Source: Spirosoma taeanense (lineage in GTDB: Bacteria; Bacteroidota; Bacteroidia; Cytophagales; Spirosomataceae). From it: a stretch of DNA of 64,000 nucleotides. The notes under the pieces are model-generated. The model saw only the letters and a list, made by a program, of their open reading frames with translations, did not search any database and was not told where the DNA came from. Location: NCBI RefSeq assembly GCF_013127955.1, contig NZ_CP053435.1:434001-498000 (forward strand), in the 5' to 3' direction. Made by a program: the position numbers and the translations under genes. Below, piece by piece: positions 1,378 to 9,165 of this stretch (within the stretch, counting starts at the first letter, position 1; every line of letters starts with the position of its first letter).

Positions 1378-2739
1378 ATGAAAAAAGCGGTTCTCTCTGT
1401 TTTCATTGCTTCCTGCATTTCACCTGTTTTTGCCCAGACAATTCTGAATCGTGATCCGCAAATTGCTGACCTGGTCAGCCAGGTTTCGGCCGACAGCCTG
1501 CGGGCGCACGTTAGCGGTCTGGTCAGCTTCGGAACCCGGCATACACTCAGCACAACCGCCGACCCCCGAAAAGGTATTGGGGCCGCCCGGAACTGGATAC
1601 TGGGTAAATTCCAGCAGTACGCCAAACAGTCGGGTGGGCGAATGACCGCCCAACTCGATACCTGGACGCTTCAGCCCGACGGTCGTCGCGTCGACAAACC
1701 CGCTGATATGGGGAATGTGATGGCTACTCTGAAAGGCACCGACCCGAACGATACGCGGGTGTTTATTGTGCAGGGCCACATGGACAGCCGCGTAACGAAC
1801 GTCATGAATCGGGAATCCGACGCGCCGGGAGCCAACGACGATGGCTCGGGTACAGCCGCCGTCATTGAACTCTGCCGGGTGATGAGCAAAGCGCAGTTTT
1901 CGGCAACAATCGTCTTTGTAACCCTGACGGGTGAAGAGCAGGGGCTGCTGGGGGCCGAACACCTGGCCGAGCGGGCGGTAAAAGAAAAGTGGAATCTGGA
2001 GGCCGTGCTGAACAACGACATCATGGGCTCGAACCACAGCAACGAAACGGGTATCATCGACAACACCCGGCTGCGGGTTTTCAGTGAAGGCCTGCCCGCC
2101 AGTCTGCTGAAAGACAGCACCGGGCGGATTGGCCAGATCCGGCAGTTTGGGAATGAGAACGACGGAAAAGCCCGCACGCTGGCCCGGTATCTGAAAGAAG
2201 TGGGCGAACGCTACGTCGAGAATCTGGAGGTGGTGATGGTTTACCGGAACGACCGCTACCTGCGCGGGGGCGACCATACGCCGTTCGTACAACGCGGATT
2301 CGGGGCCGTTCGGCTGACCGAGATGAACGAAAATTACGATCATCAGCACCAGGACCTGCGGACCCAGAACGGCACTGAATTTGGCGACTACGCCAAATTC
2401 ATGGATTTTGAGTACCTGCGTAAGAACACCGCCGTTAACCTCGCAACGCTGGCGAACCTGGCGAAGGCCCCGGTCGTGCCCCAACAGGTGACGATCGACG
2501 TTCGGAACCTGACGAACTCAACGGCACTTTACTGGCAGGCGCCCAAAACGGGCAAGGTAAAAGGCTATTACGTGCTGATGCGCGAAACCCATTGGCCTTT
2601 CTGGCAGAAAAAAATCTTTACGACCAAGCTGGGCATGACGCTGCCGTACTCGAAAGACAATTATTATTTCGCCGTGCAGTCGGTCAGCGAAGACGGTAAC
2701 GAAAGTCTGCCGGTGCTGCCCATGCCCAATCTGCGCTAA
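1378..2739 (+). CDS. Exported M28 family zinc peptidase
   Basis: 453 residues. The first 20 form a Sec signal peptide (MKK, hydrophobic core, PVFAQ). The M28 di-zinc ligand set is complete: H134 in GHMDS, D154/D155 in GANDDGSG, E186/E187 in TGEEQGLLG, D214 in NNDIMG, and a His at 321-323 in YDHQHQ. The residues after about 375 look like a fibronectin-like accessory domain. It is probably an aminopeptidase or carboxypeptidase of the cell envelope. The S9 peptidase gene follows 29 bases downstream on the same strand, so the pair is probably an operon for peptide breakdown. A 234-base AT-rich gap separates it from the divergent metzincin gene. The substrate cannot be read from sequence. Confidence 0.92.
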   Translation: MKKAVLSVFIASCISPVFAQTILNRDPQIADLVSQVSADSLRAHVSGLVSFGTRHTLSTTADPRKGIGAARNWILGKFQQYAKQSGGRMTAQLDTWTLQPDGRRVDKPADMGNVMATLKGTDPNDTRVFIVQGHMDSRVTNVMNRESDAPGANDDGSGTAAVIELCRVMSKAQFSATIVFVTLTGEEQGLLGAEHLAERAVKEKWNLEAVLNNDIMGSNHSNETGIIDNTRLRVFSEGLPASLLKDSTGRIGQIRQFGNENDGKARTLARYLKEVGERYVENLEVVMVYRNDRYLRGGDHTPFVQRGFGAVRLTEMNENYDHQHQDLRTQNGTEFGDYAKFMDFEYLRKNTAVNLATLANLAKAPVVPQQVTIDVRNLTNSTALYWQAPKTGKVKGYYVLMRETHWPFWQKKIFTTKLGMTLPYSKDNYYFAVQSVSEDGNESLPVLPMPNLR

Positions 2740-2768
2740 TCACTTTGTCAACACCAACTCAATCACCA

Positions 2769-4769
2769 ATGATGAACAGCCGTTTTCTTCTGCTGGCTCT
2801 GCTCACGCTTGGCGGTTTCAGCAGTCTGGCGCAAACGTCAGTCAAGAAACGCCCCCTGACGCCCAGGGATATTTATCGCCTGCAGACCATCAGCGACCTG
2901 CAGGTTTCGCCCGACGGGAAATGGGTTGCTTATGGCTTGTCGACCGTCGACTCGACAAAGGACAAACGAAATACGGACATCTGGATGGTGAGCTGGAACG
3001 GCCAGGAATCTGTGCAGTTAACTAACACGCCCGAGGGAGAATCCAAACCCCGCTTCAGTCCGGATGGTAAATACCTGTCGTTCGTCTCGGCCCGGCAGGG
3101 CGCCACAAAAGGCCAGATCTGGCTGATGGACCGCCGGGGCGGTGAAGCCCGCAAACTGACTGATCTGAAAAACGATCTGGAAGATTACGTCTGGTCGCCG
3201 GATGGTAAAAAAATCGCCATGGTTCTGCGGGACGTTGATTACGCCGACTCGGCCAAGACAAAGGTGCGCAAGCCGTACGTGCTGGATCGTTACCATTTCA
3301 AAGCCGACGTTCGGGGCTATCTGGAAAACAGCCCGGTGCATCTGTACGTCTTTGACGTAACGACTAAAAAGCTCGACACGCTAACCACTGGTATCTACGA
3401 CGAAACCTCACCGGTCTGGTCGCCGGATGGGTCGCAGATTGCCTTTGTCAGCAACCGGACGCAGGAGCCCGACCGGAATCAGAATACCGATATTTACGTG
3501 ATCGACGCCCGGAAAGGGGCAGCCTTCAAGCAGTTAACCACCTGGACGGGCTCGGACAATAGTCCCGCCTGGAGTCCCGACGGCAAGACGATCGCGTATC
3601 TGCGCTCGACGGCATCAGGCAATTTCCTGATGTATGACCAGCCCGTGCTGGCAGTTATCAGCCGCGAAGGGGGCGAACCAGCCTTGCTCTCCAAAACGCT
3701 GGACCGGCCCGTTCGCAATCCCCACTGGACAAAGGATGGACAGGCCATTGGCGTTCTGATCCAGGACGACCGGCAGGCCTACGTAGGTCAATACACGGTT
3801 GCCACCGGCAAACTAACGAAGCTGACGAGCGGCAATCGGGCGTTCAGCGATCTGGAGGCTGTTTCGGCCAATAACTGGGCTACCCTGATGAGCGATCCGC
3901 AGACGCCCCCGGAACTGTACGCGGTCGAAAACGGAATAACCCGCCGGCTAACGCACGTACACGATGCGTTTCTGGCTCCGCTCGAACTGGCCCAGGTTGA
4001 GGGCTTCACTTCACGCAGCAAAGACGGGGCGCAGGTGTCGAATATCCTGTATCGGCCCGCCAATGCACCGGCCAACAAAAAACTGCCGACTATTCTCTAT
4101 ATTCATGGCGGACCCGTTTCACAGGATGAATTTTCGTTTGATCTGACCCGGCAGCTTCTGGCGGCTGGCGGCTATGCCGTCGTTGCGGTCAACTACCGCG
4201 GCAGTAACGGTCGGGGAATCGAGCATACCAAAGCTATTTACGCGGACTGGGGTAACAAAGAAGTGCTGGACATTCTGGGCGCAACCGATTACGTAGTCGA
4301 GAAAGGTATTGCTGATCCGGAGCGGCTGGGCATTGGAGGCTGGAGTTATGGCGGTATCCTGACCAACTACACCATCGCCACCGATACGCGATTTAAGGCC
4401 GCGGCCAGCGGAGCCGGCAGCTCGCTGCAACTATCCATGTACGGTATTGATCAGTACACAAACCAGTACGAAAACGAACTGGGCGCTCCCTGGAAAAACA
4501 CCGATAAGTGGCTGAAACTGTCTTATCCGTTCCTGAAAGCTGATCGCATCAAAACGCCCACGATCTTTATGGCGGGCGAAAAAGATTTCAACGTACCGTC
4601 GGCGGGTAGCGAGCAGATGTTTCAGGCCTTACGTTCGCTGGGTATTCCAACCCAGTTGATTATTTATCCGGGGCAGTTTCACGGTATTACGGTACCCAGT
4701 TACCAGAAAGACCGCGCCGATCGCTATCTGCAATGGTTTGATAAATATCTCAAGCCAAAGACAACCTGA
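2769..4769 (+). CDS. Exported S9 family prolyl-oligopeptidase-like serine peptidase
   Basis: 666 residues from ATG at 2769. A TTG 24 bases upstream is possible, but the ATG gives a cleaner signal peptide (MMNSRFLLLALLTLGG, ending LAQ). The N-terminal half carries repeated SPDGK-type strands near bases 2905, 3058, 3195, 3421 and 3575, the mark of the beta-propeller of the DPP-IV/acylaminoacyl-peptidase branch. The alpha/beta-hydrolase half has the triad S526 in GGWSYGG, D606 in GEKDFN and H638 in GQFHG. It probably cleaves oligopeptides in the periplasm. It lies directly behind the M28 gene and is followed by a GC-rich hairpin terminator. Confidence 0.93.
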   Translation: MMNSRFLLLALLTLGGFSSLAQTSVKKRPLTPRDIYRLQTISDLQVSPDGKWVAYGLSTVDSTKDKRNTDIWMVSWNGQESVQLTNTPEGESKPRFSPDGKYLSFVSARQGATKGQIWLMDRRGGEARKLTDLKNDLEDYVWSPDGKKIAMVLRDVDYADSAKTKVRKPYVLDRYHFKADVRGYLENSPVHLYVFDVTTKKLDTLTTGIYDETSPVWSPDGSQIAFVSNRTQEPDRNQNTDIYVIDARKGAAFKQLTTWTGSDNSPAWSPDGKTIAYLRSTASGNFLMYDQPVLAVISREGGEPALLSKTLDRPVRNPHWTKDGQAIGVLIQDDRQAYVGQYTVATGKLTKLTSGNRAFSDLEAVSANNWATLMSDPQTPPELYAVENGITRRLTHVHDAFLAPLELAQVEGFTSRSKDGAQVSNILYRPANAPANKKLPTILYIHGGPVSQDEFSFDLTRQLLAAGGYAVVAVNYRGSNGRGIEHTKAIYADWGNKEVLDILGATDYVVEKGIADPERLGIGGWSYGGILTNYTIATDTRFKAAASGAGSSLQLSMYGIDQYTNQYENELGAPWKNTDKWLKLSYPFLKADRIKTPTIFMAGEKDFNVPSAGSEQMFQALRSLGIPTQLIIYPGQFHGITVPSYQKDRADRYLQWFDKYLKPKTT

Positions 4770-4839
4770 AAAAGTTAAAACAGCCGTCTTCACCATTAAC
4801 TAGAGCAGCTGTCAACATAGTGCCATTGAGTAAGCGAGA

Positions 4840-4866
4840 GGGGGGATAGATTTCCCCCTTTTTCTT
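4840..4866 (+). terminator. Intrinsic terminator after the S9 peptidase gene
   Basis: A G-run and A pair with a T and C-run across a loop of about five bases, followed at once by a T-rich tract. It lies about 70 bases after the stop codon. Confidence 0.7.
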
Positions 4867-5230: not shown

Positions 5231-6412
5231 ATGGCATCACAACTAACCCGCCGGGATTGGCTCCGCGCCAGTGGTCTGCTGACGGCTGGGCTAAGTACGG
5301 GGCTGCGGTTCGCTAAGGCGGCCCCAGCGACCTATGGTCAGTCGGTATTTGTCGATGAGTTTGCTGCCGTGCGCGGCACAAACACGGCTACCCCCCCCGA
5401 TACGCTGCCCAAACTTCGGGCGCGGTTATTGGCGAATGAGAACCCACTCGGCATTGCTCCGAGTGCAAAGGAAGCGCTCGTAAAAGCCGCCGACATTGGT
5501 AACCGATATGCCTGGATGGAGTTTGCGCAACTGAAACAGCTTATTGCGGCCGATGAAGGTGTTTCGCCCAAAAACATCATGATGTCGCCAGGTTCATCGG
5601 ATATTCTGATGGCGGCTGCTACCCATTTTGCCAAAGGTGGCGGTACAATTCTGACCAGCGCCATGACCTACGACGACCTGCTTGAACGGGCGCAGAAGCA
5701 GGGTGCCAAAATTGTGGCCGTACCCATGACGAAAGAGTATACGTACGACCTCGCAGCCATTAAGGCCAGAATTACCCCCGACGTGAAGCTGGTTTACATC
5801 GTGAACCCGAATAACCCAACCGGCACTGTTGTCCCGGCGGCTGATTTGGAAGCGTTCTGCCGGGAGGTAGCGCCTAAAGTGCCTGTGTTCCTTGACGAAG
5901 CCTATATCGATTTCTATGAACCCGCCGACCGGCCTAAGCTGGGTAAGCTGGTGGCCGAAGGACAGAATGTGATCCTGGCCCGGACGTTCTCCAAGATTCA
6001 TGGCTTCGCAGGGCTGCGCCTGGGTTATGCTATTGCTAAGCCTGAACTGCTGATGGCGATGAAGCCCTATACCAATGGTGAATTTGCCGTTAGTATCACA
6101 ACCCTGATGGCCGGTATCGCCAGTTACCAGGATAAAGACTGGCAGAATCACTGCCGGGCCGAGAACGCCAAAGCCCGGGCCTTCACCACTAAAGCCCTGA
6201 CCGATATGGGCTATGACGTGATTCCATCAGCCGCCAACTTTATTCTGTTTCCCATTCGGATGAAGACCAAGGCATTTGAAAACCAGATGTTCGCCAATGG
6301 TATTGGTATTCAGACGCGGGACTTCAGCGGGCAGCCTTACTGCCGCGTCAGCGTCGGGACAATGGACGAGATGGCCATGTTTATGGATGGGTTTAAAAAA
6401 GTGGTAGGTTAA
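5231..6412 (+). CDS. Tat-exported class I/II PLP-dependent aminotransferase, HisC-like
   Basis: 393 residues. Residues 6-12 read TRRDWLR, a twin-arginine signal, followed by a hydrophobic stretch and a probable cleavage site near A33. The fold-type I aminotransferase body starts about residue 60. It has NPNNPTGT (192-199), DEAY (222-225), the PLP lysine K255 in TFSKIHG, R263, and an RVSVGT motif near the C-terminus like the carboxylate-binding end of histidinol-phosphate aminotransferases. Export by Tat fits a protein that binds PLP before crossing the membrane. The flavin oxidase gene starts 28 bases downstream, so the pair is probably co-transcribed. No histidine-biosynthesis gene is nearby, so a HisC role is unlikely; the substrate is probably another amino acid. 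A run of eight C bases lies at 5391-5398 in the linker. Confidence 0.9.
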   Translation: MASQLTRRDWLRASGLLTAGLSTGLRFAKAAPATYGQSVFVDEFAAVRGTNTATPPDTLPKLRARLLANENPLGIAPSAKEALVKAADIGNRYAWMEFAQLKQLIAADEGVSPKNIMMSPGSSDILMAAATHFAKGGGTILTSAMTYDDLLERAQKQGAKIVAVPMTKEYTYDLAAIKARITPDVKLVYIVNPNNPTGTVVPAADLEAFCREVAPKVPVFLDEAYIDFYEPADRPKLGKLVAEGQNVILARTFSKIHGFAGLRLGYAIAKPELLMAMKPYTNGEFAVSITTLMAGIASYQDKDWQNHCRAENAKARAFTTKALTDMGYDVIPSAANFILFPIRMKTKAFENQMFANGIGIQTRDFSGQPYCRVSVGTMDEMAMFMDGFKKVVG

Positions 6413-6440
6413 CCAGACGACACAGCAGGCTGGACCGTAC

Positions 6441-8024
6441 ATGCACATTATGACGAGACGGGATTTCATTAATTCAACAAGTGCCAGTTACGCCAGCTTA
6501 TTGGCGTGGGGAATGCTGCCGTCGGCTCCGGCCTCGGCTATGAATTTACCGGCTAATGGTCGTACCAGCGAAGGAAAAGGCCGGAAAGTAGTGATCTTAG
6601 GCGCTGGTCTGGCCGGGATGGCTACGGCTTATGAACTTGGAAAGCTAGGCTACGACTGTACGGTGCTGGAAGCGCGGTCGCGGTCGGGTGGCCGCGTCTG
6701 GACAATCCGGGGCGGTACGAAAGAAACTGAGATGAACGGTGGAACTGATCAGACCTGCCGATTTGAAGACGGCTTATACTTCAACGGGGGAGCCGCTCGT
6801 ATTCCGCATCACCACCAGTTAACCCTTCAGTATTGCCGGGAACTCAACGTACCGCTGGAGATTTTCAACGGCAACAACGAAGCCGCTTATTTATATAACG
6901 ACGGCGGTACGGGCGATTTTGCCAACCGGCGGCTGCGCATTAAAGAATATCATAACGATATGCGCGGCTATACGTCCGAACTGCTCGCCAAGGCTCTCGA
7001 TCAGTCGGCTTTAGACCAGCAGCTAACAAAAGAAGACATTGAAAAGCTGGTCGATTTTCTGAAGAACGAAGGCGACCTGAATACCAATCATCTGTACAAG
7101 GGCACTAACCGGCGCGGCTACAAAGCAAAAAACGAACCCGGCGCCGGAACTGCTCCGGGCGAAGTAACCGATCCGTATGGCCTGACCGATCTGCTACGTT
7201 CAGGGTTTATGCAGCCGGTATTTTATAACGTCGGCGATTACATCTATGAGCAGCAGACAACGCTCATGCAGCCTGTCGGCGGCATGGACGCCATTCCGAG
7301 GGCGTTTGAAAAAAAACTAACGGGTAAAATTCTGTTCAACGCCCCTGTAACGGAACTTCGTAAAACCGAAAATGGCGTTCGGGTCGTCTATCAGAAAGGA
7401 GGCAAACCGCAGGAGTTAACCGCCGAATTCTGCGTCTGCACGCTGCCGCTGCCCATGCTGAAAAACCTGGAATCTGATCTGTCGGGTACGGTGAAGCGGG
7501 CGGCTGATTTTGTGCCCTACATCAAAACCGGCAAAATCGGTCTGCAATTCAAAAGGCGCTTCTGGGAAGAGGACGACTGGATTTACGGGGGCATCTCGCG
7601 CACCAACATGGACATCAATCAGATCTGGTATCCGTCGTTCGGCTTTCAGGGTAAGAAAGGTGTTCTGATTGGCTATTACAATTTCTATAGCCGCGCCGAA
7701 GCGATAGGGGCTATGCCGGTGGCTGAGCGCGAGAAACTAGCTCTAACCCAAGGCAGTAAAATTCACCCGCAATATCCATCCGAGTTTGAGAACTCATTCT
7801 CGCTGGCCTGGCACCGGGTGCCTTATAGCGGGGGCGGCTGGGCTACCTACGACGATGCGACGCGTCGGAAATATTATCCCGCCCTGCTGGAGCCCGACGA
7901 CAATATCTACTTTGCCGGTGAGCACACCACTTATCTGACCGCCTGGATGGCGGGCGCTCTGACATCCGCCCGGCGGGCTGTGGAAGCAATCCATGCGCGA
8001 GTGGGCGAGTACACAAAAAAGTAA
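6441..8024 (+). CDS. Tat-exported flavin monoamine/L-amino-acid oxidase family protein
   Basis: 527 residues. Residues 5-9 read TRRDF, a Tat motif, with a hydrophobic segment ending in an APASA cleavage site near 33. The FAD dinucleotide fold follows (VVILGAGLAGMATAYEL, residues 50-66) with the GG-doublet motif SRSGGRV (81-86). A GGAARIP segment followed by YCRELNVPLE resembles L-amino-acid oxidases more than neurotransmitter-type MAO. The end has FAGEHTTYLTAWMAGAL, the C-terminal FAD-contact motif. Predicted reaction: oxidative deamination of an amine or amino acid in the periplasm, releasing ammonia and hydrogen peroxide. It sits between the Tat aminotransferase (28 bases upstream) and the Hint protein (71 bases downstream). 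Confidence 0.88.
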   Translation: MHIMTRRDFINSTSASYASLLAWGMLPSAPASAMNLPANGRTSEGKGRKVVILGAGLAGMATAYELGKLGYDCTVLEARSRSGGRVWTIRGGTKETEMNGGTDQTCRFEDGLYFNGGAARIPHHHQLTLQYCRELNVPLEIFNGNNEAAYLYNDGGTGDFANRRLRIKEYHNDMRGYTSELLAKALDQSALDQQLTKEDIEKLVDFLKNEGDLNTNHLYKGTNRRGYKAKNEPGAGTAPGEVTDPYGLTDLLRSGFMQPVFYNVGDYIYEQQTTLMQPVGGMDAIPRAFEKKLTGKILFNAPVTELRKTENGVRVVYQKGGKPQELTAEFCVCTLPLPMLKNLESDLSGTVKRAADFVPYIKTGKIGLQFKRRFWEEDDWIYGGISRTNMDINQIWYPSFGFQGKKGVLIGYYNFYSRAEAIGAMPVAEREKLALTQGSKIHPQYPSEFENSFSLAWHRVPYSGGGWATYDDATRRKYYPALLEPDDNIYFAGEHTTYLTAWMAGALTSARRAVEAIHARVGEYTKK

Positions 8025-8095
8025 ATACCCATCTCTATTTCGGCCTAACTAATCATTAATTATGCCGGTTCAGAAACCGGTGAGCCCTATCGATT

Positions 8096-9091
8096 ATGAA
8101 ACACAATCTGCTTTCTCTCTTCTTTTTCTTTGCCTGCGCGATCACAACCCAACTTCTAAGCCAACGTGTCTGGGCACAAACCGCGTCGGCGGGTATGACG
8201 CTCGATCAGCTCAAGGCCGTCAAAGCCATTAAAATTGCTAACCTGGATAAGGACACGTACTTCAAATCGGGCGGGTTTATCCTGGATCGGTATGAAGAGC
8301 GGCCGGCTTACGTATTTACCTACAGCGATGGTATCACGCGTAAGATTTATCTCTACAAGATTTTCACCGCTGCCGATACCAAAGATCTCGGTCTGCTGGC
8401 CATCTACCAGAATGGAAAAACCGGCGAGGTAAAACCGTTTGTCATTCCCGGTGCAAGCGCCGAACGGGGTGCCTGGGATGCCTACATCGACGACCTGAAG
8501 TACGTTGGCGAGAAAGAGCCTGGCCTGATGTCGACGCTCACCTTCGTCCTGTCACGCGAGATGGCCGGACTCCTGGCGGGTGGCAGCGCTAAAACAGACG
8601 ACGGTGGCGCGAAAAAGAAAGAGGAATATAACTTCTGCTTCGCAGCCGACGCACCCGTAACGCTGGCTGATGGCTCTGCCAAAAAAATCAGCGATATAGC
8701 CGTTAATGATGTCGTGATGGGCTATAATGTTGCCACAAAAATTACGGCTCCAACGCACGTAACGCGCATTGATACGCATCAGGGTACGTTCAATCTGACG
8801 GGTGTCTGGCTGGCCCCGGTTAGCGAAATAGTGGCTCAGACCGAAGTCGGCATGTCTCCGGCTGTCCTGCTCGAAGCGACGGCCAATCACCCGGTTCTGA
8901 CCGCAACGGGCCGTAAAGCCCTGGGCGACGTTACGGCCGGTGAAGTGCTCTACCGGAATGAAGCTGGAAAACCAGTTGCTTACCGCGTAGTTCGGGTTGA
9001 AAAGCAGACCAAAACAGTTTCGACCGTATATAATCTTGCCACGGAAGCCGGTGCGTATCTGGTCGGCGAGACGGTGGTACTCGATAAATAA
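8096..9091 (+). CDS. Exported protein with C-terminal Hint (hedgehog/intein) domain
   Basis: 331 residues. Residues 1-28 are a Sec signal peptide. Residues 30-160 form a domain I do not recognise. A Lys/Asp/Gly-rich linker (164-178) leads to a Hint domain. This starts at C181 (FCFAADAPVTLADG), has the block-B-like TANHPV (262-267, T262 and H265), and ends with VYNLATEAGAYLVG, the usual last Hint strands. The protein stops five residues later with no HN dipeptide and no C-extein, so splicing is not expected. An N-S acyl shift at C181 with cleavage or ligation to a nucleophile, as in hedgehog-type Hint domains, remains possible. It is the third gene of the Tat enzyme unit and is followed by a strong terminator. 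Confidence 0.8.
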   Translation: MKHNLLSLFFFFACAITTQLLSQRVWAQTASAGMTLDQLKAVKAIKIANLDKDTYFKSGGFILDRYEERPAYVFTYSDGITRKIYLYKIFTAADTKDLGLLAIYQNGKTGEVKPFVIPGASAERGAWDAYIDDLKYVGEKEPGLMSTLTFVLSREMAGLLAGGSAKTDDGGAKKKEEYNFCFAADAPVTLADGSAKKISDIAVNDVVMGYNVATKITAPTHVTRIDTHQGTFNLTGVWLAPVSEIVAQTEVGMSPAVLLEATANHPVLTATGRKALGDVTAGEVLYRNEAGKPVAYRVVRVEKQTKTVSTVYNLATEAGAYLVGETVVLDK

Positions 9092-9111
9092 GGTAGATAC
9101 GTATTGATTCA

Positions 9112-9165
9112 AGCGTCCCGCTGAACGAATTACACCGCTCGTTCAGCGGGACGCTTTCTGTTTTC
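9112..9165 (+). terminator. Strong intrinsic terminator after the Hint gene
   Basis: A perfect 17-base stem (9112-9128 with 9139-9155) with a 10-base loop, then a T-rich tail. It closes the three-gene unit 5231-9091. Confidence 0.85.

Follow-up and report, generated by a model that had tools for sequence, protein, structure and literature searches.

A Hint precursor with a new N-terminal domain is encoded beside a Tat-type L-amino-acid oxidase and an aminotransferase in Spirosoma and its relatives

What might a self-processing Hint protein do beside two exported enzymes of amino-acid metabolism? Setting aside inteins and polymorphic toxins, little is known, as far as we are aware, about Hint proteins of bacteria, and a locus in a 5.72 Mb Spirosoma genome raises the question directly. 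The DNA analysed, hereafter the window, is a stretch of 64,000 nucleotides (G000:C1:434001-498000) in which genes for a pyridoxal phosphate (PLP) aminotransferase (AT), a flavin adenine dinucleotide (FAD) L-amino-acid oxidase (LAAO) and a precursor with a C-terminal Hint domain (HINT) lie head to tail on the (+) strand. An earlier note on this DNA had described this layout, with gaps of 28 and 71 bases, and the list of open reading frames (ORFs) bears out both the frames and the gaps. The twin-arginine motifs that it had pointed out were also located, TRRDWLR at residues 6-12 of AT and TRRDF at residues 5-9 of LAAO. The three genes are as follows.

5231..6412, (+) strand: AT, a HisC-like PLP aminotransferase with a twin-arginine translocation (Tat)-type signal (LTRRDWLRASG); 393 amino acids (aa); Aminotran_1_2 match.
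6441..8024 (start may be 6450), (+) strand: LAAO, a Tat-type FAD L-amino-acid oxidase; 527 aa; Amino_oxidase and 2JAE matches.
8096..9091, (+) strand: HINT precursor, with signal peptide, N-domain, linker and C-terminal Hint domain; 331 aa; AlphaFold2 model with a predicted local distance difference test score (pLDDT) of 84.6.

Genome comparison at the sequence level confirms that AT, LAAO and HINT are a conserved gene set and not chance neighbours. The cut-offs were E<1e-60 for LAAO and E<1e-40 for AT in 150 genomes of the family, and E<1e-100 for LAAO in 345 genomes of the phylum, so that more distant relatives of both enzymes are left out of the counts. LAAO was detected in 55 of the 150 family genomes, and in 54 of these HINT lies directly downstream on the same strand, at a gap of 4-315 bases (median 75.5); the sole genome without an adjoining HINT is a draft of 71% completeness in which LAAO is matched only in part. 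Across the phylum, all six genomes with LAAO carry HINT within 3 kb. Full-length HINT occurs in seven of the 345 genomes, six of which have LAAO, and the seventh belongs to genus g31. All three genes stand together in 45 of 56 loci from named genomes, and the other 11, several of them short contigs, lack one or two. On these loci, the 54 family pairs and the six phylum genomes, a chance neighbourhood of the trio is rejected. A profile search found HINT as a single copy in the window's genome; in the wider order the profile matched 75 of 291 genomes, many of these matches being weak and covering the Hint part only.

The sequences of relatives thus uphold the view that the two Tat-type enzymes form one conserved unit with an exported Hint precursor. 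The earlier note had also held that the three would be chance neighbours if their order were lost in relatives or if the Hint gene were usually elsewhere. HINT does stay beside LAAO across genera, families and classes, whereas the internal order and the strand vary outside Spirosomaceae and AT is sometimes missing. In Pontibacter, HINT faces AT and LAAO on the opposite strand in four of five loci, and the fifth, which is cut, shows AT. The order LAAO-AT-HINT is found in three loci (L177, L183, L185), and in four phylum genomes from other families AT, once doubled, is situated between LAAO and HINT. Two tandem AT genes occupy this position at L204:7944-10386. At L186:8399-11217, next to a whole HINT, both AT and LAAO fall into two ORFs, through draft error or decay.

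The HINT precursor was modelled with AlphaFold2 on an alignment (A2) of 36 sequences including that of the window. In the full-length model a linker of low confidence, at residues 160-178, connects two domains, and the chain divides as follows.

8096..8179, (+) strand: signal peptide, residues 1-28, ending in VWAQ; read by eye from the sequence; A27 and Q28 nearly invariant.
8180..8572, (+) strand: N-domain, residues 29-159, a new family; AlphaFold2 model, no PDB or Pfam match.
8573..8635, (+) strand: linker, residues 160-180, mostly of low confidence (residues 160-178 with pLDDT < 50).
8636..9088, (+) strand: Hint domain, residues 181-331, with Cys1 = C181, H228 and the TxxH motif at T262-H265; from fold match and residue counts.

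Modelled alone (residues 29-163), the N-domain reached a pLDDT of 93.7 and a predicted template modelling score of 0.87. No PDB fold match was obtained for it at E<=0.001 (best E 0.14), none among viral models at the same threshold, and no match in Pfam. The parts of the unit are of known kinds, and the N-domain is a new family. It was found in 65 of the 150 family genomes, the same 65 that carry long Hints, always as a fusion in frames of at least 303 aa, and no stand-alone N-domain was detected in the 150. In the nine other Spirosoma/Fibrisoma rows of A2 the N-domain is 87-94% identical to that of the window, against 57-66% for the Hint domain; in distant rows the two identities are similar.

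Residues 181-331 have the Hint fold: their model matches BIL2, inteins and the Hedgehog Hint domain at E values of 1.2e-8 to 1.9e-7, with template modelling scores by target length of 0.87 for 1mi8 and 0.81 for 1at0. Against the Pfam Hint profile PF01079 the domain scores 20.5 bits, under the gathering score of 29.7. The protein ends in VVLDK at residue 331, lacking a C-terminal His-Asn and any C-extein as well as a toxin domain after Hint, and it stops at the last Hint strand, leaving no sterol-recognition region like that of Hedgehog Hog. A C-terminal Hint without His-Asn rules out both an intein and a polymorphic toxin. Bacterial intein-like (BIL) domains share the fold, BIL2 of Tetrahymena being the top fold and profile match, and they are reported to give predominantly cleaved products (PMC7664689). 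HINT differs from them in its missing His-Asn end, its one conserved N-domain and its metabolic gene neighbours. With Hedgehog it shares an N-terminal product domain followed by a C-terminal Hint with a Cys for an N-S acyl shift (PMC9163320), and it differs from it in lacking the sterol-recognition region, in having an N-domain without a PDB fold match and in being bacterial.

Are the catalytic residues kept? A Hint alignment was assembled from 98 unique matches, minus two of 450 aa or more and plus a duplicate of the window protein, giving 97 rows, 96 of them distinct; the rows are related and not independent. C181, T262 and H265 are present in all 85 rows with an N-domain, and H228 in 84 of them. 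The 12 rows of short Hints without an N-domain comprise 11 of the 21 short Hints of the family plus one from another family (L188). Among these, Cys1 is kept in two, Thr and His together in seven and H228 in one. The difference in Cys1, 85 of 85 against two of 12, shows that cleavage chemistry goes with the presence of the N-domain. Hint matches occur in 86 of the 150 family genomes, 65 with an N-domain and 21 short, and none of the 21 short-Hint genomes has LAAO. That the Hint domain releases its N-terminal part, as proposed earlier, gains support because the catalytic residues are kept in every N-domain row, and self-cleavage itself, in which an N-S shift at Cys181 would set the N-domain free in the periplasm, is quite probable on this conservation.

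The short Hints are themselves of interest. At 11 loci (L073-L076, L079-L082, L086, L087 and L092) they appear to be exported and lack the N-domain, and Cys1 is absent from 10; the L188 protein, encoded on a 3.1-kb contig without AT, keeps it. Eleven of the 12 are encoded after a related AT and a transporter-like gene (Pfam Mem_trans, 21.0 bits, below the cut-off of 25.7), with a second AT between at L076. Genes for SusC, SusD and a 160-aa lipoprotein come before them in most of these loci. In genus g32 (L073, L173) a PAD_porph-family deiminase gene adjoins the AT-transporter(-Hint) locus.

If the Hint thioester were attacked by an amino acid or amine of LAAO/AT, or by an amino-lipid, the N-domain would gain a C-terminal adduct or a membrane anchor, as in Hedgehog-like ligation. 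A C-terminal Hint without a His-Asn end is also the Hedgehog arrangement, Cys1 and TxxH are invariant, and the near-exclusive presence of H228 in proteins with an N-domain fits as well. The general base of Hedgehog is D46/D303, and exchanging it for His is reported to keep activity and to widen the range of substrates (PMC9163320). H228 corresponds to Hint position 48, near this residue, and offers a weak lead; given a gapless profile match to 1at0, taken by coordinates only, it would lie two positions away from D46, and a His aligns at the same place in BIL2 of Tetrahymena. No sterol-recognition region or other domain follows Hint, and nothing points to a particular nucleophile; we regard ligation of this kind as quite unlikely. 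A fuller version, a bacterial counterpart of Hedgehog maturation in which the N-domain is cut off by its own Hint and its C-terminus then linked to a lipid amine or small molecule whose supply the exported oxidase and transaminase would set, is very doubtful; if true, amino-acid oxidation would control periplasmic protein modification.

The two enzymes can be placed more closely. LAAO matches Pfam Amino_oxidase at E 6.6e-57, and its best solved relative is the L-amino acid oxidase 2JAE (E 1.5e-111, 377 bits), with homology over residues 48-523, a span that takes in the FAD site and leaves out little of the chain. We take 2JAE to be roLAAO of Rhodococcus opacus, in which R84 and Y371 are presumably the substrate-carboxylate residues; Arg 120 and Tyr 413 of the window LAAO align with them if the chain numbering shifts by one, as was assumed. 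We know of no Hint or transaminase partner of the 2JAE oxidase. The start of LAAO may be the ATG at 6450, because the match of relatives mostly begins at query residue 2-4. AT matches Pfam Aminotran_1_2 (PF00155) at E 2.6e-38, with 132.6 bits against a gathering cut-off of 19.7, and its best solved relative is 3ly1, with which the PLP-lysine motif TFSKIH aligns (AT TFSKIHGFAGLRLGY, 3ly1 TFSKIHAMAGMRVGY). It scores 228.3 bits with NCBIfam hisC (TIGR01141), under the equivalog cut-off of 276.55; 260 bits with PRK09105, under its cut-off; and 193.7 bits with PtaA (NF051461), far under the equivalog cut-off of 500. On these profile matches, AT belongs to the class I/II aminotransferases and stands close to HisC. 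The genome encodes TatC (212.9 bits), and with the motifs TRRDWLR and TRRDF both enzymes are predicted Tat substrates.

Exported enzymes of both kinds have precedents. PtaA of Pseudomonas is a transaminase sent through Tat into the periplasm, according to passages of a review (PMC6206403), and is a precedent for an exported HisC-like, PLP-dependent transaminase; those passages mention no Hint or LAAO partner for it. A Tat-signal L-amino-acid oxidase with accessory proteins is encoded by the lao-cccA-ridA cluster of Gluconacetobacter, which has relatives in Caulobacter and Xanthomonas, as reported in PMC5053998. Its accessories are a cytochrome c and RidA, whereas LAAO of the window is flanked by AT and the Hint precursor. 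Among plasmid records, 38 with LAAO relatives were found, all below 60% identity. Three of these records, from outside Bacteroidota, were opened (Metabacillus, Deinococcus, Mesorhizobium), and tblastn detected neither AT nor HINT beside LAAO in these stretches; a cytochrome c adjoins the relatives in Deinococcus and Mesorhizobium. On the Metabacillus plasmid (L206), a Rid protein gene and the plasmid's own tatA and tatC come after the LAAO relative (50%), with a metallo-beta-lactamase gene annotated nearby.

Taken with the gene order, we hypothesize that the unit serves as a module for amino-acid oxidation in the periplasm, together with a self-processing Hint partner whose N-domain acts as an accessory, a reading that we hold tentatively and that falls somewhat short of probable. 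AT and LAAO would be exported folded via Tat, carrying PLP and FAD, and the precursor would be exported via Sec. In the periplasm the Hint domain would transfer the acyl group from residue 180 to Cys181, with T262 and H265 helping, and water, the simplest choice, or another nucleophile would then free the N-domain. Splicing is not expected, because there is no C-terminal His-Asn and nothing after Hint. The freed N-domain might serve the enzymes in place of the cytochrome c or Rid proteins found beside related LAAOs elsewhere; we infer this accessory role for LAAO/AT from gene company. LAAO would turn an L-amino acid into a keto acid, which AT could use as amino acceptor, so that transamination would run one way and the pair would drive oxidative amine removal. 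In several genera the amine substrate may enter via a neighbouring SusC/SusD importer.

Several observations weigh against such a module. AT relatives occur in 126 of the 150 family genomes, against 86 with Hint, so AT also occurs without any Hint. Eleven family genomes, all of genus g31, have a long Hint and no LAAO; AT lies directly before HINT in at least 10 of them, among the matches listed. AT is absent from four stretches with LAAO and an N-domain HINT (L125, L129, L136, L175), and three further loci have an N-domain HINT with neither enzyme (L137, L140, L182). With N-domain Hints occurring without LAAO, without AT or without both, no single enzyme is an obligate companion of the N-domain. 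Purifying selection appears to act on the short Hints, most of which no longer have Cys1, as their dN/dS is 0.04 in the sole pair with moderate dS and 0.18-0.22 in three pairs with dS >2, two further pairs not being computable. As they also stay near AT, it seems that the Hint fold serves some purpose other than cleavage as well. Finally, at the thresholds used, and within about 3-6 kb per side or less at contig ends, neither SusC nor SusD was detected at the Spirosoma, Larkinella, Fibrella and Siphonobacter loci.

Elsewhere, the survey of 93 loci, with some genomes represented twice, placed SusC, SusD or a lipoprotein beside 10 distinct loci that combine an N-domain Hint with LAAO or AT. SusC, mostly with SusD or a lipoprotein, accompanies HINT in Pontibacter (five loci), Arcicella, Rhodocytophaga, a Cytophagales metagenome-assembled genome and G026; L186 has the lipoprotein only, and both SusC and SusD are present at two g31 loci (L077, L078). 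At 4.13 Mb (L169, G000:C1:4126477-4132881), away from AT-LAAO-HINT, the window's genome carries SusC, SusD and a lipoprotein together with a second AT that shares about 42% identity with that of the window; this SusC is TonB-linked and scores 641 bits, above cut-off. A single peptide-synthetase-type condensation domain (304 bits, the sole match in the genome, in a 1358-aa frame) was located at G000:C1:166314-167612.

Could the enzymes instead tailor a peptide or siderophore in the periplasm, as PvdN and PtaA do for pyoverdine? AT and LAAO would then modify an imported or home-made peptide, with the Hint protein as carrier. The match of AT to the PtaA model, the SusC/SusD genes beside related units and with the second AT, and the condensation domain are all consistent with this; the PtaA score falls short of its cut-off, the peptide-synthetase gene is about 270 kb away, and the solved relatives of LAAO are named for free amino acids. 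We regard it as unlikely.

A peroxide weapon or defence, a generic possibility for any LAAO, would have the enzyme make H2O2 against neighbours with the help of Hint and AT. The abstract of a review credits LAAOs with restricting bacterial and parasite growth (PMC6149928), and among the candidate-defence models of PADLOC the LAAO of the window matches C3a186, which describes a desaturase-like FAD protein, at 134.5 bits (E 1.4e-39), which may be plain homology between FAD enzymes. AT matches PADLOC weakly (SspA and DndA, 26 bits each), and HINT and four flanking genes have no PADLOC match. Apart from the trio and the SusC/SusD set no recurring genes were noticed, the flanking ORFs of relatives not being systematically annotated, and AT has no evident role in such a scheme. 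We regard it as most improbable.

The boundaries of the unit were also analysed. The strong terminator noted earlier after HINT was recovered as an 18-pair hairpin; the 71 bases that were folded reach -34.8 kcal/mol (z -7.2), and none of 200 shuffles was equally stable. Terminator consensus sites as such are not commoner in the window than chance (8 found, 5.7 expected by shuffling).

9111..9156, (+) strand: intrinsic terminator hairpin, 18 pairs with a 10-base loop; folding z -7.2.
4836..4862, (+) strand: terminator-like hairpin, downstream of the S9 peptidase gene and upstream of AT; consensus match only.

Pattern scans identified no promoter upstream of AT-LAAO-HINT. A Bacteroidota promoter pattern, TANNTTTG, has no match just upstream of the unit, and 29 matches in the window compare with 28.7 expected.

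Thiolase and hydroxyacyl-CoA dehydrogenase genes follow the unit. Upstream of AT on the same strand, at 1378-4769, are genes for M28 and S9 peptidases whose products are apparently exported. These neighbours would suit simple nitrogen scavenging, in which exported peptidases, LAAO and AT degrade amino acids and the Hint protein is a structural bystander. A conserved tie to the peptidases was rejected: of the 76 loci searched, 5 had M28, 6 had S9 and none had the two together, and the link was dropped because they are so seldom near the trio in relatives. A bystander, moreover, would hardly stay beside LAAO in nearly every family genome that has it and keep invariant catalytic residues. We regard scavenging alone as very unlikely.

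The combination of a Hint domain with L-amino acid oxidase or with Spirosoma was not found in the literature searched, which included few subscription papers, and the one paper listed for a Hint domain with a periplasmic aminotransferase concerns coral genomes by its listing; the N-domain and the short Hints were not searched by themselves. What the locus adds, in a genus known to us as harmless, is a bacterial Hint whose gene is linked in 54 of 55 genomes to that of an oxidase of named chemistry, mostly alongside a transaminase, and which is itself tied to a single new domain. The short Hints, with their catalytic residues mostly lost, provide a natural control and suggest that the Hint fold can be kept without cleavage chemistry. 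The unit also points to exported HisC-like transaminases beyond PtaA.

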